This document shows, piece by piece, positions 654 through 58,164 of a stretch of 64,000 nucleotides of DNA. A model generated the notes under the pieces. It made no database searches and was not told the origin of the DNA. It was given only the letters and a program-made list of their open reading frames with translations. A program made the translations under genes and the position numbers. Position 1 is the first letter of the stretch. Each line of letters starts with the position of its first letter. This stretch comes from Rhodocyclaceae bacterium (lineage in GTDB: Bacteria > Pseudomonadota > Gammaproteobacteria > Burkholderiales > Rhodocyclaceae), in contig JAVBXY010000008.1 in the NCBI GenBank assembly GCA_030824275.1, forward strand, positions 62,001 through 126,000. The letters run 5' to 3'.

Positions 654-3272
654 CTACCCGGCTTTCTTGGCAGCGGCCTTTTTGGCCGGTGCCTTCTTGG
701 CGGGCGCTTTGGCTGCCTTGGCCGCCGGTTTCTTCGCGGCCTTCTTCGGTGCTTCTTCTGCCGTTGCCGCCGTGTCGCCAGCGCCGACTTTTTCAGCCTT
801 CGGTGCAGCAGCCTTCTTCGGCGCGGCCTTGCGTTCCTCGAACTCGAAGCCGACCTTGCCGGTGGCGGCGTCGCGCACAAGATAAGCCGAGAACTTGCGC
901 TTGGTGCGGTTGGAGATGAAGCCCCGCATCAGGCTGGTCTTGCCGGTTTCCAGCAGCTTCTGCATTTCGGCCCGGGCGATTTCCTGTTGCAGGATTACCT
1001 TGCCGGAACGGAAGTCGCAACTCTTGGCCGGGCCGACCGCTTTCTCGCAGGTATAGGCCATGCCCTGTTCGAAGACCTTGCTGCCGCATTTGGGACAAGC
1101 GCCCAGGGGTTCCTGGCCGCTGAAGTCCACTTCTTCGGCATCGTCGCCGTCGGCGTTGCCAAAGTCGAACTCGGGTTTCTTCTCGGCATTGAGCTTGATC
1201 ATCGCCGCGAAGGCGCGGCCCATCTTGCTGCGGAAGCCCTGTAGCGGGCCGACGACGCCCTTGGTCAGCAGTTCTTCCATTTCCTCCGGTTCCCACTGCC
1301 GGCTGGCGACGACTTTCCACAGGCTGTAGTCGCAGGACTTGCACTCGAACTTGCGATAGCCCTCCTGGATGATGCCGCCGCATTTCGGGCAGGGCGTCTT
1401 CAGGTTCGAGAAGGCGGTTTCGGGCAGTTCGCCGGTCTTGATGCGCTCGACCATCTCCTGCGTCTTGCTCACGATGTGATTCATGAACTCGTCGCGGCCG
1501 AGACGCCCGTGTTCCATTTCCCTGAGCTTGAATTCCCAGTTGCCGGTGAGTTCCGGCGAACGGATTTCATCGACGCCGAGATTCTCCAGCGCGAACAGCA
1601 GCGAGAAGGCCTTGGCCGTCGGTTGCAGTTCGCGGCCGTTGCGGTGCACGTATTCTTCGGCGATCAGGCCTTCGATGGTGGCGGCGCGCGTCGCTGGCGT
1701 GCCGAGGCCGCGTTCGGACATGGCCTCGCGCAGTTCCTCGTCCTCGATCAGCTTGCCGGCGCCTTCCATGGCGGTCAGCAGCGTGGCTTCCGAGAAGCGC
1801 GGCGGTGGCTGGGTGGCCTTGGATTTGACCTCGACGTCCTTGGCCCAGACGCGCTCGTCCTTTTGCAGCAGCGGCAGGTTGGGATTTTCTTCGTCCTCAC
1901 TCACCGCTTCCTTGCCATACACGGCCAGCCAGCCCGGCGACACCAGCACCTTGCCCTCGGTCTTGAAGGCTTCCTTCTCCACCCGCGTGATGCGGGTGGT
2001 GATGTTGTATTCGGCGGCGGGGAAGAAGATGCCGAGGAAGCGCTTGGTGACCAGGTCGTAGATCTTCTGCTCGGGTTCCGAGAGATTCTTCGGCGTCGTG
2101 CCCGTGGGGATGATGGCGAAGTGGTCGCTGACTTTGGCGTTGTTGAAAATGCGCTTGTTCGGATGCACCCAGCCACTCTTCAGGATGTTGCCGGCGTGGG
2201 GCGCGTAAGGCGTGCCCGAGAAGGACTCCAGCGTCTCTTTGACGGTGGCGATGTAGTCCTCGGGCAGGTGCCGGGAATCGGTACGCGGATAGGTCAGGGC
2301 CTTGTGCTTTTCGTACAGGGCCTGGGCCAGGCCGAGGGTGTTCTTGGCGCTGAAACCGAAGCGGCCGTTGGCCTCGCGCTGGAGCGACGTGAGGTCGTAG
2401 AGCATCGGGCAGGCCTCGGTCTTGGGCTTGCTTTCCTCTTCGACGATACCGTGCTGGCCGAGGCAGGTCTTGCGGATGGCTTCGGCTTTGGCCTTGTCCC
2501 ACAGGCGCTCGGCGCGGGCATGCTCATCTTCGGCCTTCTTGAACTTCTCGTCGAACCAGCGACCCTTGTAAGTGCCGGCGACGCACTGGAATTCGGCCTC
2601 GACTTCCCAGTAGTCGCGGGAGTTGAAGTCCTTGATGCGCCGCTCGCGCTCGACCAGGATGGCCAGGGTCGGCGTTTGCACGCGGCCGACGGGAGTCTTG
2701 TAGAAACCGCTTTCCTTCGAGTTGAAGGCGGTCATGGCGCGGGTGCCGTTGATGCCGATCAGCCAGTCGGCTTCGGAACGGCAGCGGGCGGCGTCGGCCA
2801 GGGGGCGCATTTCATCGTCGGTGCGCAGGTGGGCGAAGCCTTCCTTGATCGCGGTGGCGGTCATGGATTGCAGCCACAGGCGGCGCACGGGTTTTTGCTT
2901 GTCGCCGAGGGCATGTTGCGCCACGTAGCGGAAAATCAGCTCGCCTTCGCGGCCCGCGTCACAGGCGTTCACCAGGCCGGTGACATCCTTGCGCTTGATC
3001 AGTCGCGTCAACAGTTTCAGGCGGTCGGCGGTACGCTCGATCGGGTTCAGGGCGAAGCGCGGCGGGATCATGGGCAGGTGGGTGAAGCTCCACTTGCCGC
3101 GCTTGACGTCGTATTCCTCGGGCACCGCCAGTTCGAGCAGGTGGCCGATGGCGGAAGACAGGACGTAATCCTCGCTCTCGAAGTAATCGCCCTCACGGGT
3201 GAATCCGCCGAGGGCCTTGGCAATATCCTGGGCGACGGAGGGCTTCTCGGCGATGATGAGCTGCTTGGACAT
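654..3272 (-). CDS. topB: DNA topoisomerase III (type IA)
   Basis: This 872-residue protein decatenates and relaxes negatively supercoiled DNA by transient single-strand cleavage. It opens with the Toprim signature IIAEKPSVAQDIA and has ACDAGREGE near residues 103-111 for metal binding. Tyr328 in LTYPRTDSR is the expected catalytic tyrosine. Two C-terminal Cys4-type zinc modules follow (CPKCGG...CKSC and CPKCGS), then a tail rich in Lys and Ala (about residues 835-872) that resembles a histone-like DNA-binding extension. A copy of the dispersed 24-bp motif encodes KVGAGDTA at about residues 828-835, exactly where this tail begins. Length matches the TopB family. The start is the ATG giving MSKQLIIAEKPS. 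Confidence 0.95.
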   Translation of the reverse strand: MSKQLIIAEKPSVAQDIAKALGGFTREGDYFESEDYVLSSAIGHLLELAVPEEYDVKRGKWSFTHLPMIPPRFALNPIERTADRLKLLTRLIKRKDVTGLVNACDAGREGELIFRYVAQHALGDKQKPVRRLWLQSMTATAIKEGFAHLRTDDEMRPLADAARCRSEADWLIGINGTRAMTAFNSKESGFYKTPVGRVQTPTLAILVERERRIKDFNSRDYWEVEAEFQCVAGTYKGRWFDEKFKKAEDEHARAERLWDKAKAEAIRKTCLGQHGIVEEESKPKTEACPMLYDLTSLQREANGRFGFSAKNTLGLAQALYEKHKALTYPRTDSRHLPEDYIATVKETLESFSGTPYAPHAGNILKSGWVHPNKRIFNNAKVSDHFAIIPTGTTPKNLSEPEQKIYDLVTKRFLGIFFPAAEYNITTRITRVEKEAFKTEGKVLVSPGWLAVYGKEAVSEDEENPNLPLLQKDERVWAKDVEVKSKATQPPPRFSEATLLTAMEGAGKLIEDEELREAMSERGLGTPATRAATIEGLIAEEYVHRNGRELQPTAKAFSLLFALENLGVDEIRSPELTGNWEFKLREMEHGRLGRDEFMNHIVSKTQEMVERIKTGELPETAFSNLKTPCPKCGGIIQEGYRKFECKSCDYSLWKVVASRQWEPEEMEELLTKGVVGPLQGFRSKMGRAFAAMIKLNAEKKPEFDFGNADGDDAEEVDFSGQEPLGACPKCGSKVFEQGMAYTCEKAVGPAKSCDFRSGKVILQQEIARAEMQKLLETGKTSLMRGFISNRTKRKFSAYLVRDAATGKVGFEFEERKAAPKKAAAPKAEKVGAGDTAATAEEAPKKAAKKPAAKAAKAPAKKAPAKKAAAKKAG
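769..792 (+). repeat. Dispersed 24-bp motif, copy 1
   Basis: One mismatch to the consensus. It lies antisense in topB and is read there as KVGAGDTA in the C-terminal tail. Confidence 0.85.
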
Positions 3273-3376
3273 ATTTAATGGGCGAGACCGGCGAATTGGC
3301 GTGCGGGGACGTACTAAGAGCGGCGCATCATAAGCGCGCCCTTATGAATTAGGCAAGCCGGGGTATTTTGGAGTGC

Positions 3377-3862
3377 TTAATTGAGCAGGACGCGGGTGAT
3401 GTCGTCGCCGACACCGAAATCCTCGTCGTCCATCTCCTCGGCGAGGAGTTCTTCGAGGATCAGCGCATCGACTTCGTGGCGAAAGCGCCAGATCACGGCC
3501 AGCACGATCACCTTCAGGCGATCCACGCTGACCACCGCATCCGGCAGGGCCAGGGCGCGCTCGATGATGGCCTCGCGCAGGGGTGCGTCGATGGCTTCGT
3601 GCTGTTCGAGGAAGGCGATGAAACCGCGCGCCTCGGCGGGCAGGCGATCCATTTCCTCCTCGTCGTAGATGCGGATGGCGGCACTGCCCGGCGCACGGCA
3701 GGGCGTGCGGCTATCGCCGGCGAGGCCGTCGAGCCAGGACAGGGCAGCCGTGATGTCGTCGCTCTCGAAACCGGCGGCCGAGAGTTTCTTGGCCAGCACG
3801 GCGGGTTCGGGACAGGCGTCCGGCAGGTAGTTTTCGAAGAGGTAAACCAGTATGTCGATCAT
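3377..3862 (-). CDS. smg: Smg family protein (DUF494)
   Basis: A 161-residue acidic protein opening with MIDILVYLFENYLPDA, the characteristic start of the Smg/DUF494 family. No catalytic motif is visible. The family is of unresolved role; it is habitually encoded directly after dprA, as here. Its ATG overlaps the dprA stop codon by four bases (3859-3862), which argues for translational coupling. The call is firm at family level, and nothing beyond that can be read from the sequence. Confidence 0.88.
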   Translation of the reverse strand: MIDILVYLFENYLPDACPEPAVLAKKLSAAGFESDDITAALSWLDGLAGDSRTPCRAPGSAAIRIYDEEEMDRLPAEARGFIAFLEQHEAIDAPLREAIIERALALPDAVVSVDRLKVIVLAVIWRFRHEVDALILEELLAEEMDDEDFGVGDDITRVLLN

Positions 3863-5004
3863 GAATGGAGCCTTTGATAGAGGCCACCCGGGAGGGTGGC
3901 AACGCGGCCGGCAAGTTCCATGGGCAACAGCATGGCAAGAAGGGCGGCGGGCGTCAAGCCGCTACGTTGGGCGAGGGTGTCAAGATCGCAAGGGGCGGCA
4001 CCTAACGCCGTGAGCACACGCTCCTCTTGCGGGTCTTGCGCCATCGCCGTATCACCATCACCGACTTTTTTCGATGTTGGTGCAGAGGCCTTGGGCGGCG
4101 TCCAGCGCAGTTCTTCGAGAATGTCCTGGGCCGACTCCACCAGCTTGGCGCCCTGGCGGATCAATTGGTGGCAGCCGCGCGACAGCGGTGAATGGATGGA
4201 ACCGGGAATGGCGAAGACCTCGCGTCCGGCCTCCGCCGCCAGCCGTGCCGTGATCAGCGAGCCACTGCGCGGTGCCGCTTCGACCACCAGGCAGCCGAGG
4301 CCAAGGCCGGCGATGATGCGGTTGCGGCGCGGAAAGTTGGCGGCCAGGGCCGGGGTGCCCAAGGGGAATTCGCTGAGGATCACGCCGTCGGCGACGATCT
4401 CGCGGGCCAGGGCTTCGTTGCGCGCCGGGTAGAGCCGGTCGGCGCCGGTGCCGATGATCGCTACGGTGCCTGCGCTGCCGGCCAGGGCGCCGCGATGGGC
4501 GGCAGCATCGATGCCCAGCGCGAGGCCGCTGACTACCGTCAGGCCGGCCTTGCCCAGGGCCTGCGAAAAGGCTTCCGCATCCCGTTCGCCCTGGGCGGTG
4601 GCGTTGCGGCTGCCGACCACGGCCAGCATGGGGCGTTGCAGGATCTCGATGCGGCCCTTGGCGTAGAGCAGCACCGGCGGATCGTCGCTGCTCAGCAGGC
4701 TTTGCGGATAGGCCGGATCGGCCAGGGTCAGCAGATGGTTGCCGGGCTCGCTGGCCCAGGCCAGCGCCGCGTCGACAGCGGCTGCGCAGTCGTGGCCAAG
4801 CAGGCGGTCGGCTGTTTCGCTGCCGATCACGCCGGCGATGGACGAACGACTGGCGGCGAAGATCGCTTCCGGCAGGCCGAAGGCCTTGAGCAGGGTGCGG
4901 CGGGTTTCGCCGCCGACGCCGGGAACCAGCGTCAGGCGCAGCCAGGCAGCAAGGCCGGCATCACCGCCGACCGTGGCGGCGAGATCGTCGCTGCCCGGCC
5001 TCAC
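3859..5004 (-). CDS. dprA: DNA processing protein DprA
   Basis: DprA binds incoming single-stranded DNA during natural transformation and loads RecA. The 381-residue protein has a helical N-terminal part. The Rossmann-like DprA fold runs over about residues 90-300 and includes VVGSRNATAQGE at 129-140, GLALGIDAAAHRGAL and FPRRNRIIAGL. A winged-helix DprA domain covers about 325-381. Between the last two domains, residues 312-320 (KKVGDGDTA) come from a copy of the dispersed motif. The gene lies just below the LysM gene and overlaps smg. With comM at 31753 it suggests that the organism is, or recently was, transformable. Confidence 0.95.
   Translation of the reverse strand: MRPGSDDLAATVGGDAGLAAWLRLTLVPGVGGETRRTLLKAFGLPEAIFAASRSSIAGVIGSETADRLLGHDCAAAVDAALAWASEPGNHLLTLADPAYPQSLLSSDDPPVLLYAKGRIEILQRPMLAVVGSRNATAQGERDAEAFSQALGKAGLTVVSGLALGIDAAAHRGALAGSAGTVAIIGTGADRLYPARNEALAREIVADGVILSEFPLGTPALAANFPRRNRIIAGLGLGCLVVEAAPRSGSLITARLAAEAGREVFAIPGSIHSPLSRGCHQLIRQGAKLVESAQDILEELRWTPPKASAPTSKKVGDGDTAMAQDPQEERVLTALGAAPCDLDTLAQRSGLTPAALLAMLLPMELAGRVATLPGGLYQRLHS
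4046..4069 (+). repeat. Dispersed 24-bp motif, copy 2
   Basis: Four mismatches to the consensus. It is antisense in dprA and encodes KVGDGDTA between the Rossmann core and the winged helix. Confidence 0.65.
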
Positions 5005-5011
5005 GATGGAA

Positions 5012-6040: not shown

Positions 6041-6136
6041 GGCGTGATCTCCCGAATTCCTGAATTTGCTACTTTAGTGTCCGCCCGATTCTGCCCCACA
6101 ATCCCCCCGGCATCAAATCCTTTCAAGAGCGCTTTC

Positions 6137-6637: not shown

Positions 6638-7551
6638 TGCGGCTGATCTTTGCCGGAACCCCCGAATTCGCCGCGCTGGCGCTGGAAGCCCTGATCGCCG
6701 CCGGCCACGACATTCCGCTGGTGCTGACCCAGCCTGACCGCCCCGCCGGACGTGGCATGCAGTTGCAGCCCTCGGCCGTGAAGAAGGTCGCGCTGGCCCA
6801 CGGCATCTCCGTCTTCCAGCCGGAAAAACTGCGCGACCCGGCGACCCATGAACCGATCCGCAACGCGGGCGCCGACATCATGGTGGTGGCCGCTTACGGC
6901 CTGATCCTGCCGCAGGCCGTGCTCGATATTCCGAAGCGTAGACCGGGCGGCTGCATCAACATCCACGGCTCGCTGCTGCCTCGCTGGCGCGGCGCGGCGC
7001 CGATCCAGCGCGCCATCGAAGCCGGCGACGACGAAACCGGCGTCACCATCATGCAGATGGAAGCCGGCCTCGATACCGGCCCCATGCTGCTGGCCGAAGC
7101 CTTGAAAGTCGGCGCTGGCGAGACGGCGGGTGAACTTCATGATCGCCTCGCCGCGCAGGGTGCGCGACTGATCGTCGACGCACTGGCCCGGCTCGACCAA
7201 TTACAGGCCGTGCCCCAACCCGAGGCCGGCGTCACCTACGCCGCCAAGATCGACAAGGCCGAAGCGCGCCTCGACTGGAATGCGCCCGCCGAGTTGCTGG
7301 CAAGAAAGATCCGCGCTTTCAATCCGTTCCCCGGCGCCACCTTGCCGCTGGCGGGCGAGACGGTGAAGATCTGGCGCGCCGAAGCCGTGGCCGGCTCGGG
7401 CAAGCCCGGCCAGGTGTTGGCGGCCAACGCCGACGGCATCGTTGTCGCTGCCAGCGAAGGCGCCCTGCGTCTCACCGAGCTGCAAAAGCCCGGTGGTCGC
7501 CGTCTCGCCAGCGCCGACTTTCTGCGCGGCACCCCACTTCGCGTGGATTGA
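6637..7551 (+). CDS. fmt: Methionyl-tRNA formyltransferase
   Basis: Transfers a formyl group from 10-formyl-tetrahydrofolate to initiator Met-tRNA. The 304-residue protein begins [16 protein letters not shown]. It carries the formyltransferase motif [13 protein letters not shown] at residues 110-122, with the catalytic Asn/His/Asp region. The C-terminal anticodon-side domain follows. Two copies of the dispersed motif lie in this one gene: KVGAGETA at about residues 157-164 (antisense orientation) and RRLASADF at about 288-295 (sense), near the C-terminus. That two copies in opposite orientations are tolerated in an essential enzyme is notable. Confidence 0.96.
7104..7127 (-). repeat. Dispersed 24-bp motif, copy 3
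   Basis: One mismatch, in the last base. It lies in fmt and is read as KVGAGETA. Confidence 0.9.
7499..7522 (+). repeat. Dispersed 24-bp motif, copy 4
   Basis: One mismatch, in the last base. It lies near the fmt 3' end and is read as RRLASADF. Confidence 0.9.
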
Positions 7552-9172: not shown

Positions 9173-10432
9173 ATGACTGCCCAATTCTCCCGTTCCGCTC
9201 CGCTGGCCGATGCCTTTCTCGGCGCTGCACAACTCGTCGCCGCCGTGATCGCCGGCCGCAATCTCGACGTCTCCCTAGCCAATGCCGGCTACACCGGCGT
9301 CACCCGTGCTGCCGTCATGGACCTGGCCTGGACAACCCTGCGCGCCTTTAGTCGTGGCGATTTCATCCTCTCGCGCCTGATGGCGAAACCGCTCAAGGAT
9401 GAGACGGCGCGCGGCCTGCTGCTGACGGCCCTGGCCCGGCTCGAAGCGAGGCCGGAAGACGCCCACACCACCGTCGATCAGGCCGTCACCGCCGCCGCGC
9501 GGATTGCCGGCGGGCGCTACAAGGGCGTGGTCAACGGCGTACTGCGCAGCTTCCTGCGTCAGCGTGAGGAATTGCTGACCGGCCTCGACGGGGTCGCCCG
9601 ATGGCAGCATCCGGCCTGGTGGATCGCCCGCTTGCGCAAGGATCATCCGCAGGAATGGGAGGCCATTCTCGCCGCCGGCAATCAGCATCCGCCGATGAGT
9701 CTGCGGGTGAATCATCGCCGTGTCACCAGCGCCGACTTTCTTGCGCAACTCGCCGTCGCCGAGATCGCCGCCCGGCCATTGGACAGCGGCGCCCTGCGTC
9801 TCGACAAGCCGCTGCCGGTCGAGCGCATCCCCGGTTTTCGCGAAGGCCTGTGTTCGGTGCAGGATGCCGGCGCGCAAGCCGCCGCCGGCCTGCTCGACCT
9901 GCGCGAGAGGCAGCGCGTGCTCGACGCCTGCGCCGCCCCCGGCGGCAAGGCCGCGCACATCCTGGAGACGGCGGCGCTCGATTTGCTAGCGCTGGACGCC
10001 GAGGCATCGCGGACTGCGCGCATTCGCGAGAACCTCGATCGCCTCGGCCTCGCCGCCACCATCCAGGTGGCCGACGCGCGCCACGTCGATGCCTGGTGGG
10101 ACGGTCGTCCTTTTGAGCGCATCCTTGCCGACGTGCCCTGTTCCGCCTCCGGTGTCGTCCGTCGCCATCCCGATGCCAAGTGGCTGCGCCGCGAAACCGA
10201 CATCGCCGGCTTCGCCGCCAGCCAGCGGGAGATTGTCGATGCCCTGTGGCGCACCCTCGCGCCCGGTGGCAAAATGCTTTATGCCACTTGTTCGGTATTC
10301 CGCGAGGAAAACGAAAACCAGATCGACGCCTTTGCCGCGCGCCACCCCGACGCCCGGTTGCTCACCACCCTGACCCTGCTCCCCGATGCCGACCACGACG
10401 GCTTTTATTACGCGCTGCTGCAAAAGACTTGA
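9173..10432 (+). CDS. rsmB: 16S rRNA (cytosine-967 C5)-methyltransferase
   Basis: The 419-residue protein has an N-terminal NusB-like RNA-binding domain (about residues 1-140) and a SAM-dependent m5C methyltransferase domain. Visible catalytic motifs are CAAPGGKAAHI (SAM binding), DVPCSASGVVRRHP (motif IV cysteine) and YATCSVFREEN (motif VI nucleophilic cysteine). The ATG at 9173 gives MTAQFSRSAPLADAF; the in-frame extension upstream overlaps the divergent cytochrome promoter and has no homologous look. A dispersed-motif copy encodes RVTSADFL near residue 184. It heads the rsmB-DUF4390-ntrY-ntrX-trkA-trkH string. Confidence 0.94.
   Translation: MTAQFSRSAPLADAFLGAAQLVAAVIAGRNLDVSLANAGYTGVTRAAVMDLAWTTLRAFSRGDFILSRLMAKPLKDETARGLLLTALARLEARPEDAHTTVDQAVTAAARIAGGRYKGVVNGVLRSFLRQREELLTGLDGVARWQHPAWWIARLRKDHPQEWEAILAAGNQHPPMSLRVNHRRVTSADFLAQLAVAEIAARPLDSGALRLDKPLPVERIPGFREGLCSVQDAGAQAAAGLLDLRERQRVLDACAAPGGKAAHILETAALDLLALDAEASRTARIRENLDRLGLAATIQVADARHVDAWWDGRPFERILADVPCSASGVVRRHPDAKWLRRETDIAGFAASQREIVDALWRTLAPGGKMLYATCSVFREENENQIDAFAARHPDARLLTTLTLLPDADHDGFYYALLQKT
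9717..9740 (+). repeat. Dispersed 24-bp motif, copy 5
   Basis: Three mismatches. It lies in rsmB and is read as RVTSADF. Confidence 0.75.
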
Positions 10433-10973: not shown

Positions 10974-13084
10974 GGATTGCCTTAGCGGTCGCGGCGGCGC
11001 TCGGCGCCATCCTGCTCTTCCTGCTGGCTTCCGCTTCCGCCAATACGGCGCTTTTCGCCCAGCACTATCCCTGGCTGCTGGCCATCAATGGACTTGCTGC
11101 GCTGGCCTTGCTGGTCCTCGTCGGCATGCAGTTGATGCGCCTGCGCCGCGACTATCGCAGCGGTGTTTTCGGCTCGCGACTGAAGTCGCGTCTGCTGCTG
11201 ACGCTGGCGCTGATGGCCGTTCTGCCCGGTGCGCTGGTGTATGGCGTGTCGATGCAGTTCGCGGTGAAGAGCATCGATTCGTGGTTCGATGTGCGCGTCG
11301 ATACGGCCCTCGAAGGCGGACTCAATCTCGGCCGCAGCGTGCTCGACACGCTCCAGGCCGAACTGCTCGACAAGGCGCGCGGCGCGGCCCTCGAACTCGG
11401 TGATGGCAGTTTCGTCAGCGGCTCCCGCCTCAATCGCCTGCGTGAGCTGGCCGGCGCCCAGACGGCAGCGCTGTTGACCACCTCCGGCCAGGTGTTGGCC
11501 AGCAGTTCCGGCGAGATGGGCAATCTGCTGCCGCCGCTGCCAAGTCCTGGCCTGTTGCGCACGGCGCGGGGCGGTCGCGGCATGGCTGCGGTGGGCGATG
11601 CGGAAGGCGGCGGCCTGCTGTTGCGCGCCCTGGTCCCGGTTTCTGGCGGCCTGTCGCTGGAGCCGCGCATCCTGCAATTCACCCAGGCGGTACCGACGCA
11701 GATCGCGAAAAGTGCCGAGAGTGTCGAGGCTGCGCATCGCGATTACCAGGAGCTGCAACTGGGCCGTATCGGTCTCAAGCGCATCTACACCATGACATTG
11801 ACGCTGGCGCTGCTGCTGGCACTGTTCGCCGCTGTGGCCCTGGCCTTCTTCCTCGCCGAGCGCCTGGCGCGGCCGCTGCTGATCCTGGCCGAGGGCACGC
11901 AGGCGGTGGCTGCCGGCGATTTCACACCGCGCGCCACCGTGGAAGGCAATGACGAACTCGGTGTGCTGACCCATTCCTTCAACAGCATGACCCAGCAGCT
12001 CGGCGAGGCCCGCGCCCAGACCGAACACCACCGCGCCGAGGTGGAAGCGGCGCAGGCCTACCTGGAAAGCGTGCTGGCCAACCTCTCCGCCGGCGTGCTC
12101 GCCTTCGATCTGCGCTTTCGCCTGCGCGCCGCTAATCGAGGAGCCTTGAACATCCTGCGCGATGAACTCGACGGTTTTGAAAAACTCGCCGTGCAGGATT
12201 GGCCCCGCCATGAAACCCTGGCCGGCTCGATACTCGAAGGCTTCGCCCGGCGCGGCGGCGAATGGCAGGAGCAGCTTGAGATCCCCCGTCCCGACGGTAT
12301 CCCGCAGGCCCTGCTGGTGCGCGGCACGGCGCTGCCGGCGGCCGGCGGCGGCGGCTATGTGGTGGTCTTCGACGACATCACCCAGCTCATTGCCGCCCAG
12401 CGCTCCGCTGCCTGGGGCGAAGTGGCGCGGCGCCTCGCCCATGAGATCAAGAACCCGCTGACACCGATCCAGCTTTCCGCCGAGCGCTTGCAGATGAAGC
12501 TCGCCGACCGCCTCGACGACGCCGGTCGCGAACTGCTGCTGCGCTCCACCAATACGATCGTGAACCAGGTCGAGGCCATGAAAAACATGGTCAATGATTT
12601 CCGCGACTACGCCCGTACGCCGCCGCCGCAGCTGGTGTCGGTTGATCTCGATGCCCTCGTTGCCGACGTGCTGGCCCTGTACGAGAATGCCAAGGCGCCG
12701 GTCGCCGTCTCGCCAGCGCCGACTTTGCCGCCGGTCAAGGCCGATCCCAACCAGTTGCGTCAGGTGCTGCACAACCTGCTGGCCAACGCCCAGGACGCGC
12801 TGGCCGAGGTCGCCGATGCCCGCATCACGCTGACCACTGCCTTCGACGACCAACGTGCCCGGCTGACCCTGAGCGACAACGGCCCCGGCTTTCCGCCGCA
12901 GATCCTGTCGCGGGCCTTCGAGCCCTACGTCACGACCAAGGCCAAGGGCACCGGCCTGGGCCTGGCCATCGTCAAGAAAATCATGGATGACCACGGCGGC
13001 GAAATCCGCCTGGCCAACAACCCCGGTGGCGAGATCAGCCTGTGGCTGCCCCTCGCCAAGCCCGGCGCATCAACAGGAGCATAG
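10970..13084 (+). CDS. ntrY: NtrY-type sensor histidine kinase
   Basis: A 704-residue membrane kinase. Hydrophobic segments at about 5-25, 35-55 and 73-93, a periplasmic region to about 270 and a further helix at 275-297 are followed by HAMP (298-350) and PAS (about 362-480). The dimerisation/phosphorylation box has His491 in HEIKNPLTPIQLSAERL, and a HATPase domain carries NLLANAQDAL and SDNGPGFP. It should phosphorylate the adjacent NtrX in response to nitrogen, redox or envelope signals. A dispersed-motif copy encodes AVSPAPTL at 578-585, in the linker between the phosphorylation helices and the ATPase N-box. The ATG overlaps the upstream stop codon (ATGA). Confidence 0.92.
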   Translation: MRIALAVAAALGAILLFLLASASANTALFAQHYPWLLAINGLAALALLVLVGMQLMRLRRDYRSGVFGSRLKSRLLLTLALMAVLPGALVYGVSMQFAVKSIDSWFDVRVDTALEGGLNLGRSVLDTLQAELLDKARGAALELGDGSFVSGSRLNRLRELAGAQTAALLTTSGQVLASSSGEMGNLLPPLPSPGLLRTARGGRGMAAVGDAEGGGLLLRALVPVSGGLSLEPRILQFTQAVPTQIAKSAESVEAAHRDYQELQLGRIGLKRIYTMTLTLALLLALFAAVALAFFLAERLARPLLILAEGTQAVAAGDFTPRATVEGNDELGVLTHSFNSMTQQLGEARAQTEHHRAEVEAAQAYLESVLANLSAGVLAFDLRFRLRAANRGALNILRDELDGFEKLAVQDWPRHETLAGSILEGFARRGGEWQEQLEIPRPDGIPQALLVRGTALPAAGGGGYVVVFDDITQLIAAQRSAAWGEVARRLAHEIKNPLTPIQLSAERLQMKLADRLDDAGRELLLRSTNTIVNQVEAMKNMVNDFRDYARTPPPQLVSVDLDALVADVLALYENAKAPVAVSPAPTLPPVKADPNQLRQVLHNLLANAQDALAEVADARITLTTAFDDQRARLTLSDNGPGFPPQILSRAFEPYVTTKAKGTGLGLAIVKKIMDDHGGEIRLANNPGGEISLWLPLAKPGASTGA
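12704..12727 (+). repeat. Dispersed 24-bp motif, copy 6
   Basis: One mismatch, in the last base. It lies in ntrY and is read as AVSPAPTL. Confidence 0.9.
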
Positions 13085-18720: not shown

Positions 18721-20711
<1,991 letters not shown>

Positions 20712-38364: not shown

Positions 38365-38381
38365 CGCCAGCGCCGACTTTT
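38358..38381 (+). repeat. Dispersed 24-bp motif, copy 12 (on a stop codon)
   Basis: Four mismatches, all in the first seven bases; positions 8-24 are perfect. It covers the anti-sigma stop codon and reaches the stop of the convergent acetyltransferase, and is the only copy not wholly inside a coding region. Confidence 0.7.
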
Positions 38382-41937: not shown

Positions 41938-44750
41938 TGCGTTTGCCTCCCAAACAGGGCGAGTGGATCGACCGTAACCACCCCCTGCGCTTCCGCTTCG
42001 AGGGTCGCGATTACGACGGCTGTGCCGGCGACACCATCGCCAGCGCCCTGGCCGCCAACGGCGTCAAGGTGCTCGGCCGCTCCTTCAAGTATCACCGTCC
42101 GCGCGGTCTGATGTCGGTGGCCAACCACGACGTGAATGCCGTCATGCAATGGGGCGGCATGCCCAATGTGCGCGCCGATGCCACTCCCCTGGTGGCCGGC
42201 ATGGATCTCACGGCGGTGAACACCTTTGGTGGCGTGGATAAGGACAAGGCCCGCATCCTCGGTTGGTTCTCCCGCTTCCTGCCCGTCGGCTTCTACTACA
42301 AGGCATTCCACAGCAAGCGCCTGTTTCCGCTGTGGGAAAAGATGTTCCGCATGACCACGGGCCTGGGCAAGGTGGATTTCGCCACGCCCCATCTGCGCAC
42401 ACCCAAGCGTTACGGCTTCTGCGACGTGCTGGTGATCGGCGCCGGAACCTCCGGCCTGTCTGCCGCACTGGCGGCGGCGGAGCAGGGCGCCGACGTGGCG
42501 ATCGTTGATGAGAACGCCAAGCCCGGCGGTAGCACGCACGGAGCGAGCGAGTTGGTGGCCCGCGTCGTCGCTCATCCGAGGGTTCGCGTCATCACCGACA
42601 CCTACGCCGCCGGCTATTACACCGACCACTGGGTACCGCTGATCGAGCGCGGCCGCATGACCAAGATGCGAGCCAGGGCCGTGGTGGTCGCCAGCGGCGG
42701 CTACGAACAACCGGCCGTGTTCCGCAACAATGACCTGCCCGGAATCATGCTGGCCTCGGGCGCCCAGCGGCTGATCCGCCGCTGGTCGGTAAAGCCGGCC
42801 CAGCGCATCGTGCTGCTGGCGGCCAATGCCGACGCCTATCTGGCAGCGGAGGATTTCCTCGCTGCCGGGATCGAGATCGCCGCCGTGGTCGATTTGCGCG
42901 ATGTCGTACCGGAGGCCCAAAAGTCGGCGCTGGCGGCACGGCGAATTCCAGTGCATGCGGGCGACTGCATCCTCGAAGCCATCCCGACCGCCGATGGCAA
43001 TAGCGTTGCCAGCGTGCGGACCAAGTCTGGCGAGATTACCTGCGACGGCGTCTTCGTCAGCGTTGGCTGGGCGCCTGCCGCGCCGCTGCTGTACCAGGCC
43101 GGAACGAAGATGCGCTACGACGACAGCGTGCACCAGTTCGTCCCCGAGAAACTTCCAGACGGCGCCTTCGCCTGCGGTCGCGTCAATGGCATCCACACGG
43201 CGCGCAGCCTCGACGGCGAGCGGGCCGGCAGCGCCGCCGCGGCCCACTGCGGCTTCGGTGTGGACCGGGCCATCTTCGTCCCCGCCGAGACCGAATCCCC
43301 CACCCACCCCTGGCCCATCGTCGCCCACCCGCAGGGCAAGAACTTCCTCGACTTCGACGAAGACCTGCAAGTCGCCGACCTCGAAAACGCCATCCAGGAA
43401 GGCTTCGACAACATCGAGTTGATGAAGCGGTATTCCACCGTCGGCATGGGCCCCAGCCAGGGCAAGCACTCGAACATGAACGCCCTGCGCGTGCTGGCCC
43501 GCTGCACCGGCAGCACGCCGGGCGAAGTGGGCACCACCACGGCGCGGCCCTTCTTCCATCCCGTGCCCATGTCCCATTTGGCCGGTCGCGGTTTCGCCCC
43601 CGAGCGGCGCACGCCCATGCACGCGCGCCACGAAGCCGCCGGCGCGGTGTGGATGAGTGCCGGCGTCTGGCAGCGGCCCGAGTACTACGCCGTGTCTGGT
43701 CAATCGCGCCTGGACTGCATCCGTGGCGAAGCCGATGCCGTGCGCAATGGCGTCGGCCTCATCGACGTCGGCACTCTGGGCAAGCTGGAAATACGCGGCC
43801 CGCAGGCGGCGGAATTTTTGGAGCGCGTCTACATCTCCAAATACGCCGGTCTGAAAGTCGGCATGACGCGCTATGCCGTGATGTGCGACGAATCCGGCGT
43901 GGTCATCGACGACGGTGTCGTGGCGCGGCTGGCCGAGGATCATTTCTACTTCACCACCACCACCTCCGGCGCCGCGCTGATCTACCGCGAGCTGTCGCGC
44001 TGGAACACGATCTGGAAGCTGGACTGCGGCATCGTCAATCTCACCGGCGCCATGGCGGCGATGAACCTCGCCGGCCCCAAGGCCAAGGCGGTGCTCGCCG
44101 GACTCACGGACGTCGATCTCTCACTGCCTTATCTCGCCGTGCGCGAGGGCATGGTCTGCGGAGTCTCTGCGCGACTAATGCGCGTCGGTTTCGTCGGCGA
44201 ATGGGGCGTCGAAATCCACGTCCCCTTTGAACACGGTGCGGCGGTCTGGGATGCGCTGATGGCCGCCGGCAAGTCGGCCGGCATCCGCCCTTTCGGCGTC
44301 GAGGCCCAGCGTCTGCTGCGCCTGGAGAAGGGCCACATCATCATCGGCCAAGACACCGACGGTCTCACTACGCCGGGCGAGGCGGCGCTGGACTGGGCCG
44401 TAAAACTGGACAAGCCCTTCTTCGTCGGCCAGCGCAGCCTGCAAGCCATCGCACGCAAGCCGCGTCGCCAGCAACTGGTGGGCTTCATGCTGCCGGCAGA
44501 GCACACCGCTGAAGCGCCGAAAGAATGTCACCTCGTGATCGAGGACGGCGAGATTGCCGGTCGCGTTACCAGCATCGCCTGGTCGCCGAGTCTGTCGCGT
44601 TACATCGGCCTGGCCTACGTCCGCAGCGACATGGCGACCGCAGACCGCAAGTTCCACATCCGCCTCACCGGCGGCACGCTGGTCGCAGCGCGGGTGGCGA
44701 AGACGCCTTTCTACGATCCCGAAAACCTGCGGCAGAAGGAGTCGGCATGA
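41937..44750 (+). CDS. mgdC: N-methylglutamate dehydrogenase, SoxA-like (alpha-type) subunit
   Basis: A 937-residue large subunit. The N-terminal ferredoxin-like fold (about 1-100), an NAD-type dinucleotide domain (VLVIGAGTSGLSAALAAAEQGADV, about 164-187) and a C-terminal GcvT-type aminomethyl/folate domain (about 560-937) match sarcosine oxidase alpha. The GcvT part takes the methylene group onto tetrahydrofolate, giving 5,10-methylene-THF. A dispersed-motif copy encodes KSALAARR at about 328-335, the only copy in that frame. mgdD starts four bases before this gene ends. Confidence 0.9.
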   Translation: MRLPPKQGEWIDRNHPLRFRFEGRDYDGCAGDTIASALAANGVKVLGRSFKYHRPRGLMSVANHDVNAVMQWGGMPNVRADATPLVAGMDLTAVNTFGGVDKDKARILGWFSRFLPVGFYYKAFHSKRLFPLWEKMFRMTTGLGKVDFATPHLRTPKRYGFCDVLVIGAGTSGLSAALAAAEQGADVAIVDENAKPGGSTHGASELVARVVAHPRVRVITDTYAAGYYTDHWVPLIERGRMTKMRARAVVVASGGYEQPAVFRNNDLPGIMLASGAQRLIRRWSVKPAQRIVLLAANADAYLAAEDFLAAGIEIAAVVDLRDVVPEAQKSALAARRIPVHAGDCILEAIPTADGNSVASVRTKSGEITCDGVFVSVGWAPAAPLLYQAGTKMRYDDSVHQFVPEKLPDGAFACGRVNGIHTARSLDGERAGSAAAAHCGFGVDRAIFVPAETESPTHPWPIVAHPQGKNFLDFDEDLQVADLENAIQEGFDNIELMKRYSTVGMGPSQGKHSNMNALRVLARCTGSTPGEVGTTTARPFFHPVPMSHLAGRGFAPERRTPMHARHEAAGAVWMSAGVWQRPEYYAVSGQSRLDCIRGEADAVRNGVGLIDVGTLGKLEIRGPQAAEFLERVYISKYAGLKVGMTRYAVMCDESGVVIDDGVVARLAEDHFYFTTTTSGAALIYRELSRWNTIWKLDCGIVNLTGAMAAMNLAGPKAKAVLAGLTDVDLSLPYLAVREGMVCGVSARLMRVGFVGEWGVEIHVPFEHGAAVWDALMAAGKSAGIRPFGVEAQRLLRLEKGHIIIGQDTDGLTTPGEAALDWAVKLDKPFFVGQRSLQAIARKPRRQQLVGFMLPAEHTAEAPKECHLVIEDGEIAGRVTSIAWSPSLSRYIGLAYVRSDMATADRKFHIRLTGGTLVAARVAKTPFYDPENLRQKESA
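42919..42942 (-). repeat. Dispersed 24-bp motif, copy 13
   Basis: Two mismatches. It lies in mgdC and is read as KSALAARR. Confidence 0.8.
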
Positions 44751-45226
44751 GCGTCCAATTCCAAGACCTGTCGACCACCCCGCGCGCTGGCGTCAAGGGG
44801 CCGGGCGCTGCCGAGTGGCTAAAACAACTCGGCCTGCCGGTGCCGGATGTGCCCAACACCTGGCTGCCCTTGGGGGGCGCGTTGGGCGGCGGCCTCATCG
44901 CCCGCCTCGGCAATACCGAGTTCCTCGTCGAAGGGCCGGAGTCAGTCAAGCTGGCGGCACCAATCAGTCACGGCGTCTACCCGGTGCTGCGCCAGGACAC
45001 CGCACTGGTGCTCAAAGGCGCACGCCTCAATGACCTGCTGCTGGAAACATGCAGCGTGAATTTCCTCGCCATCAACCGCACGACGCGCCCCGCGCTGCTG
45101 ACCTCAATAGTCGGCGTTGGCGTGACGGCGATTCCCGATGGCGATGAACTGCGCCTGTGGTGCGACAGCACCTATGGCGAATGGTTTCTCGACACTCTGC
45201 GCACCATCGCAGCCGAACTTGCATAA
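44747..45226 (+). CDS. mgdD: N-methylglutamate dehydrogenase, SoxG-like (gamma-type) subunit
   Basis: A 159-residue protein of the sarcosine oxidase gamma family, itself a reduced GcvT-like fold ([30 protein letters not shown] strand, then [19 protein letters not shown]). It has no active-site motif of its own and stabilises the alpha subunit in known complexes. It overlaps mgdC by four bases and precedes gmaS by 16. A dispersed-motif copy encodes VGVGVTA near residues 122-128. Confidence 0.85.
45106..45129 (-). repeat. Dispersed 24-bp motif, copy 14
   Basis: Three mismatches. It lies in mgdD and is read as VGVGVTA. Confidence 0.7.
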
Positions 45227-48185: not shown

Positions 48186-49535
48186 ATGTCTGAAAAACCG
48201 ATTTCCCGCGAAGAGTCCTTCGGCTACGACCGCAAGACCATCGACTACATCCGCAACGCCGCCGCCCATGGCCTCTACGAGATTCGCGGCATGGGCGCCA
48301 AGCGCAAGCTGCCCAACTTCGACGACCTCGTCTTCCTCGGTGCTTCGCTCTCGCGCTACGCCCTCGAAGGCTACCGCGAGAAGTGCAGCACCAAGACCAT
48401 CCTTGGCACGCGCTACGCCAAGAAGCCCATCGAGCTGGACATCCCCATCACCATCGCCGGCATGAGCTTCGGTTCGCTCTCGGCCAATGTGAAGGAAGCA
48501 TTGGGTCGCGCCGCCACGGAAGTCGGCACCTCGACCACCACCGGCGACGGCGGCATGACGCCGGAGGAGCGCCAGTCCTCCAAGACTCTCGTCTATCAGT
48601 GCCTGCCCTCCCGCTACGGCTTCAACCCGGACGACGTGCGCCGCGCCGACGCCATCGAAGTGGTGATCGGCCAGGGCGCTAAGCCCGGCGGCGGCGGCAT
48701 GCTGCTGGGGCAGAAAGTTTCCGCCCGCGTCGCCGGCATGCGCACCCTGCCCGAGGGCATCGACCAGCGCTCGGCCTGCCGCCACCCGGACTGGACCGGC
48801 CCCGACGACCTCGCCATCAAGATCCAGGAACTGCGCGAGATGACCGACTGGGAGAAGCCTATCTACGTCAAGGTCGGCGCCACCCGCACCTTCAACGACG
48901 TCAAGCTGGCGGTGCACGCCGGTGCCGACGTGGTGGTGGTGGACGGCATGCAGGGCGGCACCGCCGCGACCCAGACCTGCTTCATCGAGCACATCGGCAT
49001 CCCGACGCTGGCGGCCGTGCGTCAGGCGGTGGACGCACTGGAAGATCTCGACATGAAGGGCAAGGTCCAGCTCATCGTCTCCGGCGGCATCCGTACCGGC
49101 CCCGATGTGGCCAAGGCCCTGGCCATGGGCGCCGATGCCGTAGCCATCGGCCAGGGTGTGCTGATCGCGCTGGGCTGCAACCACGACAGCTATTTCCAGA
49201 ACGGCGAACACCGTCCCGCCAGCGCCGACTATTCGGCCCTCGGCACCGCGCCCGGTTTCTGCCATCACTGCCACACCGGCAAGTGCCCCGTCGGCATCAC
49301 GACGCAGGACGCGATGCTCGAACAGCGCCTGACGCCCGAGTTTGGCGCCAAGCATCTGAAGAATTATCTGAAGACGCTGAACATGGAACTGACCACCATC
49401 GCCCGCGCCTGCGGCAAGCAGAACGTGCATCACCTGGAGCGCGAGGACTTGGTGGCGCTGACGCTGGAAGCGGCAGCCATGGCGAAAGTGCCGCTGGCCG
49501 GCACGAGCTGGATTCCTGGAGTCGGCAACATCTGA
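48186..49535 (+). CDS. mgsC: N-methylglutamate synthase subunit C (FMN-binding glutamate synthase domain)
   Basis: A 449-residue flavoprotein equal to the FMN/iron-sulfur domain of glutamate synthase. It has the FMN barrel ([63 protein letters not shown]). A cysteine cluster for a 3Fe-4S centre follows ([12 protein letters not shown]). It should reduce the imine formed from 2-oxoglutarate and methylamine to N-methylglutamate. The ATG at 48186, with CAGGAG upstream, is preferred over an in-frame TTG. A dispersed-motif copy encodes RPASADYS immediately before the cysteine cluster. Its stop overlaps the folD start. Confidence 0.92.
49210..49233 (+). repeat. Dispersed 24-bp motif, copy 15
   Basis: Three mismatches. 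It lies in mgsC and is read as RPASADYS. Confidence 0.7.
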
Positions 49536-52554: not shown

Positions 52555-52584
52555 CGCAAACTACCGGCAGCGGGTAAACGCGGG

Positions 52585-52971: not shown

Positions 52972-54365
52972 TCCCTGGCCGGGCTGACGGCCTTGAAGCG
53001 CGCCAGCGTGCGTTCCCGCGCCAGGGCATGGTCGATGATGGGCGGCGGATAGTTTTTCGCGCCGCCTGTCTTCCAGGGTGCGTGGATGAGCTTGTCCGGC
53101 AAGTGGGCCAGCTCGGGCACATAGCGGCGGATGAAGGTACCCGCCGGATCGAATTTCTCCGACTGCGTCACCGGATTGAAAATGCGGAACCAGGGTTGCG
53201 CATCGCAGCCTGTAGAGGCCGCCCACTGCCAGCCGCCGTTGTTGGCGGCCAGGTCATAGTCGAGCAGTTTTCCGGCGAACCAGGCCTCGCCCCGGCGCCA
53301 GTCGATACCCAAATCCTTGGTCAGAAAACTCGCCACCACCATGCGCAGGCGGTTGTGCATCCAGCCCGAGGCCAGCAACTGACGCATCGCCGAATCGACC
53401 AACGGATAGCCGGTGCGCCCCGCTTGCCAGGCCGCCAATAGTTCGGGGGCATCATCCCAGCGTAGTCCGTCGAGGGCCGGCTTGTAGCAATGACTGACGA
53501 CGTCCGGCCGTTGCCAGAGGATCATCTGGTAGAACTCGCGCCAGATCAGTTCCGACAGCCAGGTTTCCGCACCCCGGCCACCGGTGCCATGGGCATGGGC
53601 GGCGAGCTGACGGATGGAAATCGTGCCGAAGCGCAGATGGGCCGACAGGTAGGACGGCCCCTTCACCGCCGGGTAGTCGCGGGTATCGGCGTAGGCGTCG
53701 ATGCGCTCGATGAAGTCGCGGAACAGGGCCTGCGCGCCGCTCATGCCGGTGGGCAGTTTCAGGGCGGCAAGGTCGGTGGGCGCGAAGCCCAGTTGTTCCA
53801 GCGTCGGCAGCGACGCGGATTTTTCCGGCGCGGCGAGGTGATGCAGATACGGCTCGATGGGCCAGGAGTTCAGGCAAGTCCCATCGAGTTTCGCCAGCCA
53901 GGCGCGCTTGTAGGGCGTGAATACGGCGAAGGGCGTGCCGCCCTGGGTCAGCACTTCATTGCGCTCGAAGACGACCTGATCCTTGAAATCGAAAAAGTCG
54001 GCTCTGGTTAGACGGCGTTTTACTTCCCCGTCGCGGGCAATCGCGCTCGGTTCGTAGTCCCGGTTGGCGTAGACGGCGGTGACGCCAAGTTCGGCGGCGA
54101 GACGGGGAATATCGACCACCGGATCACCGTGGCGCACGATCAGAGCGCCGCCATGGGCACGCAGGACGGTATCCAGTTCTTCGAGCGCCCGCAGGATGAA
54201 TTCGACGCGGCGGTCCCGGCGCGGCAGGGCGTCGAGGATGGTGGTGTCGAAGACGAAGGCGCAATACACGCGCTCGTGACGGGCCAGCGCATGGTGCAGG
54301 GCGGCGTGATCGTCGAGGCGCAGATCGCGGCGGAACCACACCAGGGCAGAGGAGGCAGCGGACAT
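52950..54365 (-). CDS. phr: Deoxyribodipyrimidine photolyase (cryptochrome/photolyase family)
   Basis: A 471-residue light-driven DNA repair flavoprotein. The N-terminal antenna domain starts [20 protein letters not shown]. The FAD-binding helical domain shows [69 protein letters not shown] and [30 protein letters not shown], the CPD class I signature. ATG 54365 starts right before the fold; a longer upstream frame overlaps the divergent yqgE. A dispersed-motif copy encodes RLTRADFF near residues 117-124. Confidence 0.94.
53993..54016 (-). repeat. Dispersed 24-bp motif, copy 16
   Basis: Three mismatches. It lies in the photolyase gene, in coding orientation, and is read as RLTRADFF. Confidence 0.7.
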
Positions 54366-54399
54366 GGTGGCAAGCACGGGAAGGGAGCGACAGATTACA

Positions 54400-54981: not shown

Positions 54982-55411
54982 TGAAACGCTGCTGGCTTTC
55001 GATTTCGGCGTGAAGCGCATCGGCGTGGCGGTCGGCGAGGTCCGCCTCGGCAGCGCACGCCCCCTGGCCACCATCGATGCCGAGGCGAACGATGCGCGCT
55101 TCGCCGCCATCGGCAAGCTGATTGCCGAATGGCAGCCCGCCCGGCTGATCGTCGGCCGGCCACTCAACGAGGATGGCACATCCCACGACATGACCGCCCG
55201 CGCCGAACGCTTCACCAATCAATTGCGCGGCCGCTTCAGCCTGCCGGTGGAATCGGTGGATGAACGTTTCACGTCCGTCGAGGCCGAATCGGCGTTGCGC
55301 CAGAGCCGACTTTCCTGGCAGCAGAGCAAGACCAAGGTCGACGCCGAGGCTGCCCGCATCATTCTCGAAAGCTGGTTCGAACAACAGAAAATCGCCCATG
55401 CCCATACCTGA
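54974..55411 (+). CDS. ruvX: Putative Holliday junction resolvase / pre-16S rRNA nuclease (YqgF)
   Basis: A 145-residue RNase-H-fold nuclease. The first catalytic Asp lies in [26 protein letters not shown] and [15 protein letters not shown] supply further active-site residues, and [13 protein letters not shown] ends the fold. E. coli YqgF processes 16S rRNA 5' ends; a junction-resolving role is also proposed for the family. ATG 54974 is the family-like start. The weakest dispersed-motif copy falls at LRQSRLSW. Confidence 0.9.
55291..55314 (+). repeat. Dispersed 24-bp motif, copy 17 (weak)
   Basis: Five mismatches; the CCA and GCCGACTTT parts are kept. It lies in ruvX, read as LRQSRLSW, and could be chance. 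Confidence 0.4.
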
Positions 55412-55895
55412 TGCCGAAGCCCTGATCACCGCCCTGGCCGATGCCATGCGGCCCCACGTCGACCCGGCGCGCACCGCCCTGGTCGGCATCCACACCGGCG
55501 GCGTCTGGATTGCCCAGCGCCTGCAAGCCGCCCTCGGCCTGAAGACGGCATCCGGCGCCATCGACGTCTCCTTCTATCGCGACGACTACAGCCAGCGCGG
55601 CCTGCATGCCGGCGCCAAGTCCTCGCAGATTCCCTTCGATGTCGACGGCGCCCACATCGTCATCGTCGACGACGTGCTCTACACCGGCCGCACCATCCGC
55701 GCAGCGATGAACGAACTCTTTGATTACGGACGCCCGGCCAAGGTGGAACTCGCCGTGCTGGCCGACCGCGGTGGCCGCGAGCTGCCCATCGCGCCGACCT
55801 ATTGTCCCCATGTCCTCTCCCTGCCCGTGGCGCAGATGCTGGCGCTGGAAAAGGCGGAGGATGGAAAACTTTCCTTCCGGCTGATCGAGAAATGA
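55398..55895 (+). CDS. pyrR: PyrR: pyrimidine operon regulator / uracil phosphoribosyltransferase
   Basis: A 165-residue PRTase-fold protein. The PRPP loop is [19 protein letters not shown], with [14 protein letters not shown] upstream and [16 protein letters not shown] after. In many bacteria PyrR is both a weak uracil PRTase and an attenuation regulator of pyr genes. No obvious anti-antiterminator structure is visible upstream here, so the regulatory mode is uncertain. It overlaps ruvX by 14 bases and pyrB by four. Confidence 0.92.
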
Positions 55896-56875: not shown

Positions 56876-58164
56876 ACATGCGCATCCACATCAAGGGCGG
56901 CCGCGTCATCGACCCGGCCAGCAACACCGACCGCGAGGCCGATCTTTTCATCGCCAACGGCAAAATAGTCGGCGTTGGCGATACGGCACCGGCGGGCTTC
57001 GAAAGCAACAGCATTCTCGATGCGACCGGCTGCATCGTCTGCCCCGGCCTCGTCGATCTCTCCGCCCGCCTGCGCGAACCGGGCTACGAATACAAGGCCA
57101 CGCTGGAGTCCGAAATGGCCGCCGCCGCCGCCGGCGGCGTCACCCGTCTGGCCTGCCCGCCGGACACCGACCCGGTGCTCGACGAACCCGGCCTGGTCGA
57201 GATGCTGACCCATCGCGCGCGTCTGCCCGAGTTCGCCCACGTCCATCCGGTCGGCGCCCTGACGGTGCAGCTTGAAGGCAAGGCCCTGACCGAGATGGCT
57301 GAACTGCACGAGGCCGGCTGCATCGCCTTCGGCCAGGCCAATCGGGCCATCGTCGACACCCAGGTGCTGCTGCGCGCCATGCAGTACGCCGCCACTTTCG
57401 ATTTCCCGGTCTGGCTCCAGGCCCAGGACCCCTTCCTCGCCAAGAAGGGCGTCGCCCACGACGGCGAAGTCGCTGCCCGTCTCGGCCTCGTCGGCATCCC
57501 CGTCGCCGCCGAGACCATCGCCCTGGCCACCATCCTGCACCTGGCCCGCGAGACCGGCGCCCGCGTGCATCTGACGCGCATCTCCTCGGCCGCCGGCCTG
57601 GAGATGATCGTCGCCGCCCGCGCCGCCGGCATCGCCGTCACCTGCGACATCTCCGCCCATCATCTGCACCTGTCGGAAATGGACATCGGCTTCTTCAACG
57701 CCCACGCCCGCCTCGACCCACCGCTGCGCAGCCAGCGCGACCGCGACGCGCTGCGTGCGGGCCTCGCCAGTGGCGCCATCAATGCGCTGTGTTCGGATCA
57801 CACGCCGGTGGACGATGACGCCAAGCAGACGCCCTTCGACGAAGCCGAACCGGGCGCCACCGGCCTTGAGCTGCTGCTGCCGCTGACCCTGAAATGGGCG
57901 CAGGAAATGAAGCTGCCGCTGGTCACCGCACTGGCCCGCGTCACCTCCGATCCGGCCCGCGTGCTGGGGCTGGATGCGGGACAACTGGCCATCGGCGCCG
58001 CCGCCGACATCTGCGTCTTCGATCCCCGCGCCGGCTTCGTCGTCACCCGCGACGCCCTGCGCAGCCAGGGCAAGAACACGCCCTTCCTCGGCCTCGAACT
58101 GCCGGGCCGCGTCCGCTACACGCTGATCGACGGGCATCTGGCCCACGATGGCGCGTGGGGCTGA
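56872..58164 (+). CDS. pyrC': Dihydroorotase-like non-catalytic subunit (PyrC')
   Basis: A 430-residue amidohydrolase-fold protein. The position where active dihydroorotases have the metal pair HxH before LREPG reads Ser63-Ala-Arg65 ([13 protein letters not shown]), and the later H-A-E-D site reads QAQDP, so the metal site is lost. CSDHTP and DPARVLGL survive. It is thus the structural partner of PyrB, known from pseudomonads. An active PyrC must be encoded elsewhere. A dispersed-motif copy encodes VGVGDTA at residues 33-39. Confidence 0.9.
56964..56987 (-). repeat. Dispersed 24-bp motif, copy 18
   Basis: Three mismatches. It lies in pyrC' and is read as VGVGDTA. Confidence 0.7.

Follow-up and report, generated by a model that had tools for sequence, protein, structure and literature searches.

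The DNA analyzed here is a 64-kb stretch (below called the window) from the genome of a member of the Rhodocyclaceae, and it carries 18 copies of a short asymmetric motif. The full motif comprises 26 bp, the genome assembly contains 772 copies, and variants occur in six further genera. The motif probably works as a DNA uptake sequence; based on sequence comparisons, we put the probability of this function at roughly 0.83. The motif itself is real, genome-wide, and lineage-limited, and it has most of the signature of uptake sequences, in a family for which none was found described.

Sequence and Copy Number of the Motif

The source genome G000 consists of 3,577,214 bases in 38 contigs and is 85% complete; the window represents bases 62001-126000 of contig C5. 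A 464-kb sample of G000, i.e., the window plus 400 kb from contigs C1 and C4, contained 106 copies with at most four mismatches, and their consensus is TCGCCGT-V-Y-C-R-CCAGCGCCGACTTTT. The consensus is asymmetric and non-palindromic, as had been stated in an initial annotation of the window. Its information content is about 37 bits, summed over the consensus columns and slightly inflated, the copies having been chosen by similarity. The edges are sharp at both ends, the information drops to background just outside, and no longer unit is visible. The initial annotation had let the motif begin at GCCGT, which was too short, because TC usually precedes these bases (T in 59%, C in 86% of the cases). 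It had also described four variable bases thereafter; bases 6 and 7 are indeed free, but base 8 is C in 91% of the copies and base 9 is G or A.

The 24-mer GCCGTNNNNCCAGCGCCGACTTTT was found 772 times in the 3.58-Mb assembly with at most three mismatches, versus four times for the reversed pattern. The core CCAGCGCCGACTTTT had 795 matches with at most two mismatches, versus 18 for the pattern read backward. The count thus exceeds the about 200 genomic copies below which the initial annotation would have doubted a genome-wide signal, and the motif extends beyond the window. In the 464-kb sample 103 copies had at most three mismatches; the reversed motif was not found at all, and 12 letter-shuffled motifs gave 0-1 matches. 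A chance origin had been thought unlikely, and 100 dinucleotide shuffles of the window yielded no copy. A blind count of 12-mers revealed that the core 12-mer AGCGCCGACTTT is the most over-represented one (61 observed, 0.24 expected), and the core likewise ranked first in 98 kb of G092, a genome of genus g2. Hundreds of genomic copies far above expectation, which are typical for uptake sequences, were therefore observed.

Copies in the Window

Every position and strand in the initial list of 18 copies proved to be exact. The copies and the genes that contain them are as follows.

769..792, + strand, 0 mismatches: in topB (DNA topoisomerase III)
4046..4069, + strand, 2 mismatches: in dprA
7104..7127, - strand, 1 mismatch: in fmt; same position in 4/11 motif-positive and 0/80 motif-poor or motif-free relatives
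7499..7522, + strand, 1 mismatch: in fmt; same position in 8/11 motif-positive and 0/79 motif-poor or motif-free relatives
9717..9740, + strand, 1 mismatch: in rsmB; same position in 10/14 motif-positive and 0/39 motif-poor or motif-free relatives
12704..12727, + strand, 1 mismatch: in a sensor histidine kinase gene (labelled ntrY here)
19066..19089, + strand, 0 mismatches: in priA
24556..24579, + strand, 1 mismatch: in a ROK-sugar-kinase-like gene (no curated cut-off reached)
28834..28857, + strand, 1 mismatch: in an asmA-like gene (below cut-off)
30432..30455, + strand, 0 mismatches: in a gene without NCBIfam or Pfam match
32695..32718, - strand, 0 mismatches: in the yifB/comM gene
38358..38381, + strand, 2 mismatches: overlaps a gene end and the adjoining gap, beyond which the next gene is convergent
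42919..42942, - strand, 0 mismatches: in a sarcosine-oxidase-alpha-like gene (below cut-off)
45106..45129, - strand, 2 mismatches: in a gene of 159 amino acids without NCBIfam or Pfam match
49210..49233, + strand, 2 mismatches: in a gene with a glutamate-synthase-like domain (below cut-off)
53993..54016, - strand, 1 mismatch: in a DNA photolyase gene
55291..55314, + strand, 3 mismatches: in ruvX
56964..56987, - strand, 2 mismatches: in an amidohydrolase gene

The initial mismatch tally was wrong and too pessimistic, as five copies are perfect, seven have one mismatch, five have two, and one has three. The 17 intragenic copies are spread over 16 genes; by a plain count, six of the 16 have roles in the recombination, repair, or topology of DNA (topB, dprA, priA, yifB/comM, the photolyase gene, and ruvX). 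The reported presence of dprA and comM was confirmed, with both families over their cut-offs.

3859..5004, - strand: dprA (TIGR00732, 250.9 bits, cut-off 191.15)
31753..33267, - strand: YifB-family ATPase gene, yifB/comM (TIGR00368, 593.6 bits, cut-off 362.4)

DprA guards and processes incoming single-stranded DNA during transformation. The YifB-family ATPase corresponds to ComM, the branch-migration helicase of transformation. A further window gene (24898-26538, - strand) encodes Schlafen/AlbA_2 and RecG-C-terminal-like regions; it has no motif copy, its codon fit is poor, the G+C of the 4-kb bin around it is lower, and it was possibly acquired.

Origin by Substitution and Shared Positions

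Six sites of the window, i.e., the two in fmt and those in rsmB, topB, dprA, and ntrY, were compared with orthologues from 84 loci without abundant motif, 14 motif-positive loci, and two motif-poor loci (G265 and G023). Loci were counted when the gene match had at least 45% identity and the site was covered. The 84 motif-lacking loci were 79 named loci, judged on at most 20.8 kb each, and five from genomes with 1, 2, 6, 10, and 16 copies. The motif-positive relatives were all from outside the genus of G000, and one of them was a Rugosibacter record.

The motif-lacking orthologues were gapless in all 198 cases at the two fmt sites (80/80 and 79/79) and the rsmB site (39/39), and none of the 198 was nearer than five mismatches to the motif. 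The motif-positive relatives were gapless in 22/22 cases at the fmt sites and in 10/14 at the rsmB site. The gapless alignments indicate that the motif overwrote existing codons and was not inserted. An example from fmt is the peptide RRLASADFL in G000, which corresponds to KRLPAADFL in G010 and Methyloversatilis. At these three sites the motif thus originated in place by substitution, as is characteristic of uptake sequences. The sites in topB, dprA, and ntrY are in variable regions and are uninformative on insertion (gapless in 22/46, 28/72, and 27/46 cases, respectively).

The initial annotation had asked for conservation at orthologous positions, and this was found. Of the 65 covered motif-positive cases, 33 had a copy with at most three mismatches in the corresponding place, as compared with none of the 362 motif-lacking and none of the eight motif-poor cases. 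At a density of one copy per about 4.6 kb shared positions are rare by chance, and, therefore, the copies are old or have been re-established at the same tolerated places.

Placement, Strand, and Spacing

Genes were predicted with a simple gene caller of our own, which classified 92.3% of the 464-kb sample as coding. The initial view that the motif is almost always inside genes is true for the window (17 of 18 copies), but not for the larger sample, in which 72 of the 106 copies are genic (36 in gene direction and 36 against it), 28 are intergenic, and six lie across a gene edge. Intergenic DNA is favored about 3.4-fold, because it holds 28 of the 106 copies in about 8% of the sequence. Convergent gaps are the densest (2.04 copies per kb), followed by tandem (0.83) and divergent gaps (0.35). 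The intragenic copies use all three frames and both strands, albeit unevenly: the frame encoding KVGAG(D/E)TA-like peptides accounts for 29 of the 36 antisense copies, and the one encoding AV-PAPTF-like peptides for 21 of the 36 sense copies. This unevenness indicates that the encoded protein restricts the places at which the motif can be tolerated.

The strands are mixed, with 34 + and 32 - copies in a 300-kb stretch of C1, 7 + and 15 - copies in C4, and 12 + and 6 - copies in the window. Uptake sequences are asymmetric, occur in both orientations, and have no replication polarity, and the same was seen in the 464 kb of G000, which are from draft contigs and not from a closed chromosome. The spacing is more even than random, with coefficients of variation of 0.73 for C1, 0.59 for C4, and 0.50 for the window (P = 0.005, 0.007, and 0.001, respectively, given as the share of 5,000 simulations with equally low values).

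Distribution and Dialects

The family of the genera concerned is named Rhodocyclaceae by GTDB; NCBI places Rugosibacter in the Sterolibacteriaceae. Among 297 genomes sampled evenly from the family, 37 hold 271-831 copies, and the next highest number is 56. The motif-positive genomes belong to seven genera, namely g1 (1/1), g2 (11/12), g9 (1/1), g20 (10/11), g69 (1/1), g70 (4/4), and g88 (9/9). An order-wide draw of 399 genomes contained 13 from the family, four of them positive, and the maximum in the other 386 was seven copies. Only one of 80 named loci had any full match, the Rugosibacter record L024 with two copies in 9.4 kb. It has 93% DNA identity to G087 over 3 kb, and, therefore, genus g88 includes this Rugosibacter. 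No motif was found in the named loci of Thauera, Zoogloea, Azospira, Methyloversatilis, and Accumulibacter (at most 20.8 kb each). Low counts above the control were observed in g24 (52 in G023), g90 (at most 16), and g11 (at most 14); these could be relics or imports.

In a tree of Fmt, RsmB, and NtrX from 32 taxa, in which G068 (g69) was left out, the positives form two groups, {g70, g20} with a value of 0.991 and {g9, g2, g1, g88} with 1.000. The motif-free g30 and the motif-poor g24 and g90 are near the positives, and one joint has a value of only 0.459. The tree is thus as consistent with one gain followed by losses as with two gains. HtpX was tried as a synteny marker and RsmB was used instead, as the htpX next to the window fmt has no close counterpart in g2, g9, g20, g69, and g70; the searched genomes of these genera gave only distant HtpX-like matches.

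Two genomes from positive genera are nearly free of the motif. G265, which is nested in g2, has 56 copies, and G270 from g20 (87% complete) has two. A replacement motif was sought by 12-mer counts in 242 kb of G265 and about 240 kb of G029, and none was found; the top 12-mer of G265 was rejected because it is an internal repeat of one locus.

The spelling of the motif appears to differ by genus, which provisionally points to dialects that follow the lineages. The comparison included 106 copies from g1, 23 from g2, 16 from g9, 28 from g20, 11 from g69, 19 from g70, and 26 from g88; the G000 motif served as the search seed, the copies of several genera come from more than one species, and some letters reach only 53-62%. 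The majority letters were as follows.

g2: ending TTC (C 74%)
g9: CCAGC(A, 62%)CCGACTTTT
g20: (G, 57%)TGCCGT..CGCCAGCGCCGACTTT(C, 50%)
g69: CCAGCG(T, 82%)CGACTTTT
g70: CC(G, 53%)GCGCCGAC

Copies were also seen elsewhere. G377 from family f38 has three perfect copies, one with one mismatch, and one with two (C5:60970, C34:277115, C34:285457, C67:48858, and C1:435271), which suggests import of DNA from a motif-positive relative, or contamination. In IMG/VR, 112 stretches of viral contigs hold an exact 24-base form of the motif, mostly one or two copies among the 80 listed (L256-L335). Phages or prophages of motif-positive hosts may carry the motif, or host flanks may have been included.

Alternative Explanations

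A chromosome-organizing site had already been named as an alternative in the initial annotation. Such a site, or one for segregation, would be comparable to KOPS, matS, or the targets of nucleoid proteins, and its binding partner would be a cytoplasmic protein. Genome-wide, evenly spaced copies of a long, well-kept motif would be in accord with such a site. However, KOPS- or Chi-like signals need one dominant orientation per replichore, and no strand polarity was found in the 300-kb stretch. Furthermore, abundance in just 37 of the 297 family genomes and near-absence from the nested G265 would be odd for a core function. A non-polar nucleoid protein may be considered as the binder, but altogether this explanation is improbable.

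Still less credence can be given to a Chi-type recombination hotspot, which would act after uptake and not at the receptor. The missing polarity argues against it as well, as does the abundance in seven genera only, and known Chi sites are far shorter than 26 bp, although the motif is over-represented, asymmetric, and in genes, several window genes for recombination and repair among them. Least likely of all is the previously suggested spreading mini-repeat, or a mobile-element remnant, inserted into genes, which would account for many near-identical copies across several genera, but not for the lack of extra residues at the three conserved sites, nor for a consensus that ends sharply with no longer unit.

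Transformation Machinery and Candidate Receptor

If the motif is an uptake sequence, a predicted receptor of the type IV pilus would bind it on free DNA and cause the preferential uptake of DNA of the own kind. The motif would be read by a minor pilin at the pilus tip, and the bound DNA would then pass PilQ and ComEC, be handled by DprA, and recombine. Over many generations, biased uptake of motif-bearing alleles would place copies, and keep them, at sites where the gene can accommodate the peptide that they encode.

The machinery for transformation is present in G000, i.e., ComEC, PilQ, DprA, and minor pilins, and it is shared with motif-free relatives. ComEC (PF03772) was over the cut-off in 45/45 genomes and PilQ (TIGR02515) in 43/45, G000 included in both cases; PilQ was below the cut-off in the motif-positive G161 and the motif-free G013. 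The minor pilin clusters of G000 contain two pilins of the ComP_DUS family (69.3 and 47.9 bits, over the family cut-off) and a PilV. A solved-structure look-up of two pilins gave general pilin matches only, and a comparison of the G265 pilins with those of two congeners, which covered part of 30/47 matches, gave no receptor candidate.

Several observations weigh against an uptake function. ComEC and PilQ do not discriminate, because they are equally present in motif-free relatives. ComP_DUS pilins were found in 39/40 genomes whatever the motif status, and the only genome without a match (E 1e-5), G068, is motif-positive; as the family is present with or without the motif, it provides a candidate receptor only. 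The charge of the minor pilins showed no visible difference between motif-positive and motif-free groups, and a tree of pilins of 120-162 residues mixes these groups and has no separating clade. G265 and G270 are nearly motif-free, yet both kept ComEC and PilQ over the cut-off. Competence loss is thus not supported as the cause of motif loss; the code can vanish without loss of these genes, which is no help to the uptake hypothesis. In 98 kb of the motif-positive G171 no 12-mer reached the threshold of eight copies, and, thus, the blind count is effective only with a tight dialect. Inverted pairs that double as terminators are frequent, though not universal, in uptake sequences, and here they are nearly absent, with one close pair among the 106 copies of the 464-kb sample. 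This sole pair is in L016 at 9456(+) and 9496(-), 40 bases apart in the same gene. Lastly, a literature search by family name only found no uptake experiment for the motif-positive genera.

Taken together, the proposed likeness to uptake sequences is supported by the genome-wide excess, the lack of strand polarity, the even spacing, the origin by substitution, the shared positions, the lineage dialects, and the competence genes.

Implications

No other case shows as clearly as uptake sequences that bacteria choose their partners for genetic exchange, and the knowledge about these sequences stems from two families, mostly of animal hosts. We consider it quite probable that the motif represents a third family with independently evolved self-DNA recognition. 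Seven genera of the Rhodocyclaceae/Sterolibacteriaceae type would then share a 26-bp password with genus dialects and hundreds of copies, which would be read by a pilus receptor and would have stayed at the same positions within genes since these genera diverged. No gap-free uptake code known to date would be longer or richer in information. If true, a free-living betaproteobacterial case that combines dialects, shared positions, and sister species with and without the motif would be a fresh comparative system, in which it could be studied how uptake codes start, spread, change their spelling, and vanish. It would also predict natural competence in genera for which the search by family name found no reports.

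Comparison with Known Uptake Systems

No literature on uptake sequences in Rhodocyclales/Rhodocyclaceae, Sterolibacteri-, Rugosibacter, Sulfuritalea, or Georgfuchsia was found in open-licence full text, nor was the core motif sequence itself. One article reports that Zoogloea was transformed by a foreign plasmid in mixed culture (PMC10257627). Zoogloea was motif-free in the loci examined, and its transformation would fit code-free uptake in relatives; it is no test of the motif.

According to a 2025 article, uptake sequences are known so far from only the Neisseriaceae and the Pasteurellaceae (PMC12616744). For the Pasteurellaceae receptor, this article relied on genome-wide co-variation of orthogroups. 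It describes the DNA uptake sequences (DUS) of Neisseriaceae as up to about 13 nt long, and the uptake signal sequences (USS) of Pasteurellaceae as up to 32 nt with flanks, genome-wide, of types that differ by lineage, and with an invariant GCGG core (PMC12616744). Neisserial DUS have lineage dialects, some relatives are without DUS, the CTG core and an A at +10 (CTGNA) are found in all eight dialects, and the meningococcus has about 1,900 exact DUS 10-mers, as given in an earlier article (PMC3630211).

Like neisserial DUS, the motif has asymmetric copies in the range of hundreds to thousands, lineage dialects, and relatives that lack it. In contrast to DUS, it has 26 bp and about 37 bits, it is less numerous (772 copies with at most three mismatches versus the about 1,900 exact 10-mers), inverted pairs are almost absent, and CTGNA is present in only one of the 106 copies (either strand). 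The heptamer GCCGTCT, which is also part of the canonical DUS, is a minority spelling (15/106 copies). In the g20 dialect, the majority spelling extends this match to the eight bases TGCCGTCT of the neisserial DUS; the match may be due to chance or may hint at related receptors. The likeness extends to ComP, the DUS-binding minor pilin (Pfam ComP_DUS), of whose family G000 has two members; the difference is that the family is present regardless of the motif.

With pasteurellacean USS the motif shares the considerable length, the lineage types, and the genome-wide occurrence. In contrast to USS, GCGG is found in 48/106 copies (either strand), where it is made by a variable base and is not kept, AT-rich flanking tracts are absent beyond TTTT, and the carriers belong to another class of bacteria. 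As read here from sequence features, the motif would work like a DUS or USS and would be a member of neither.

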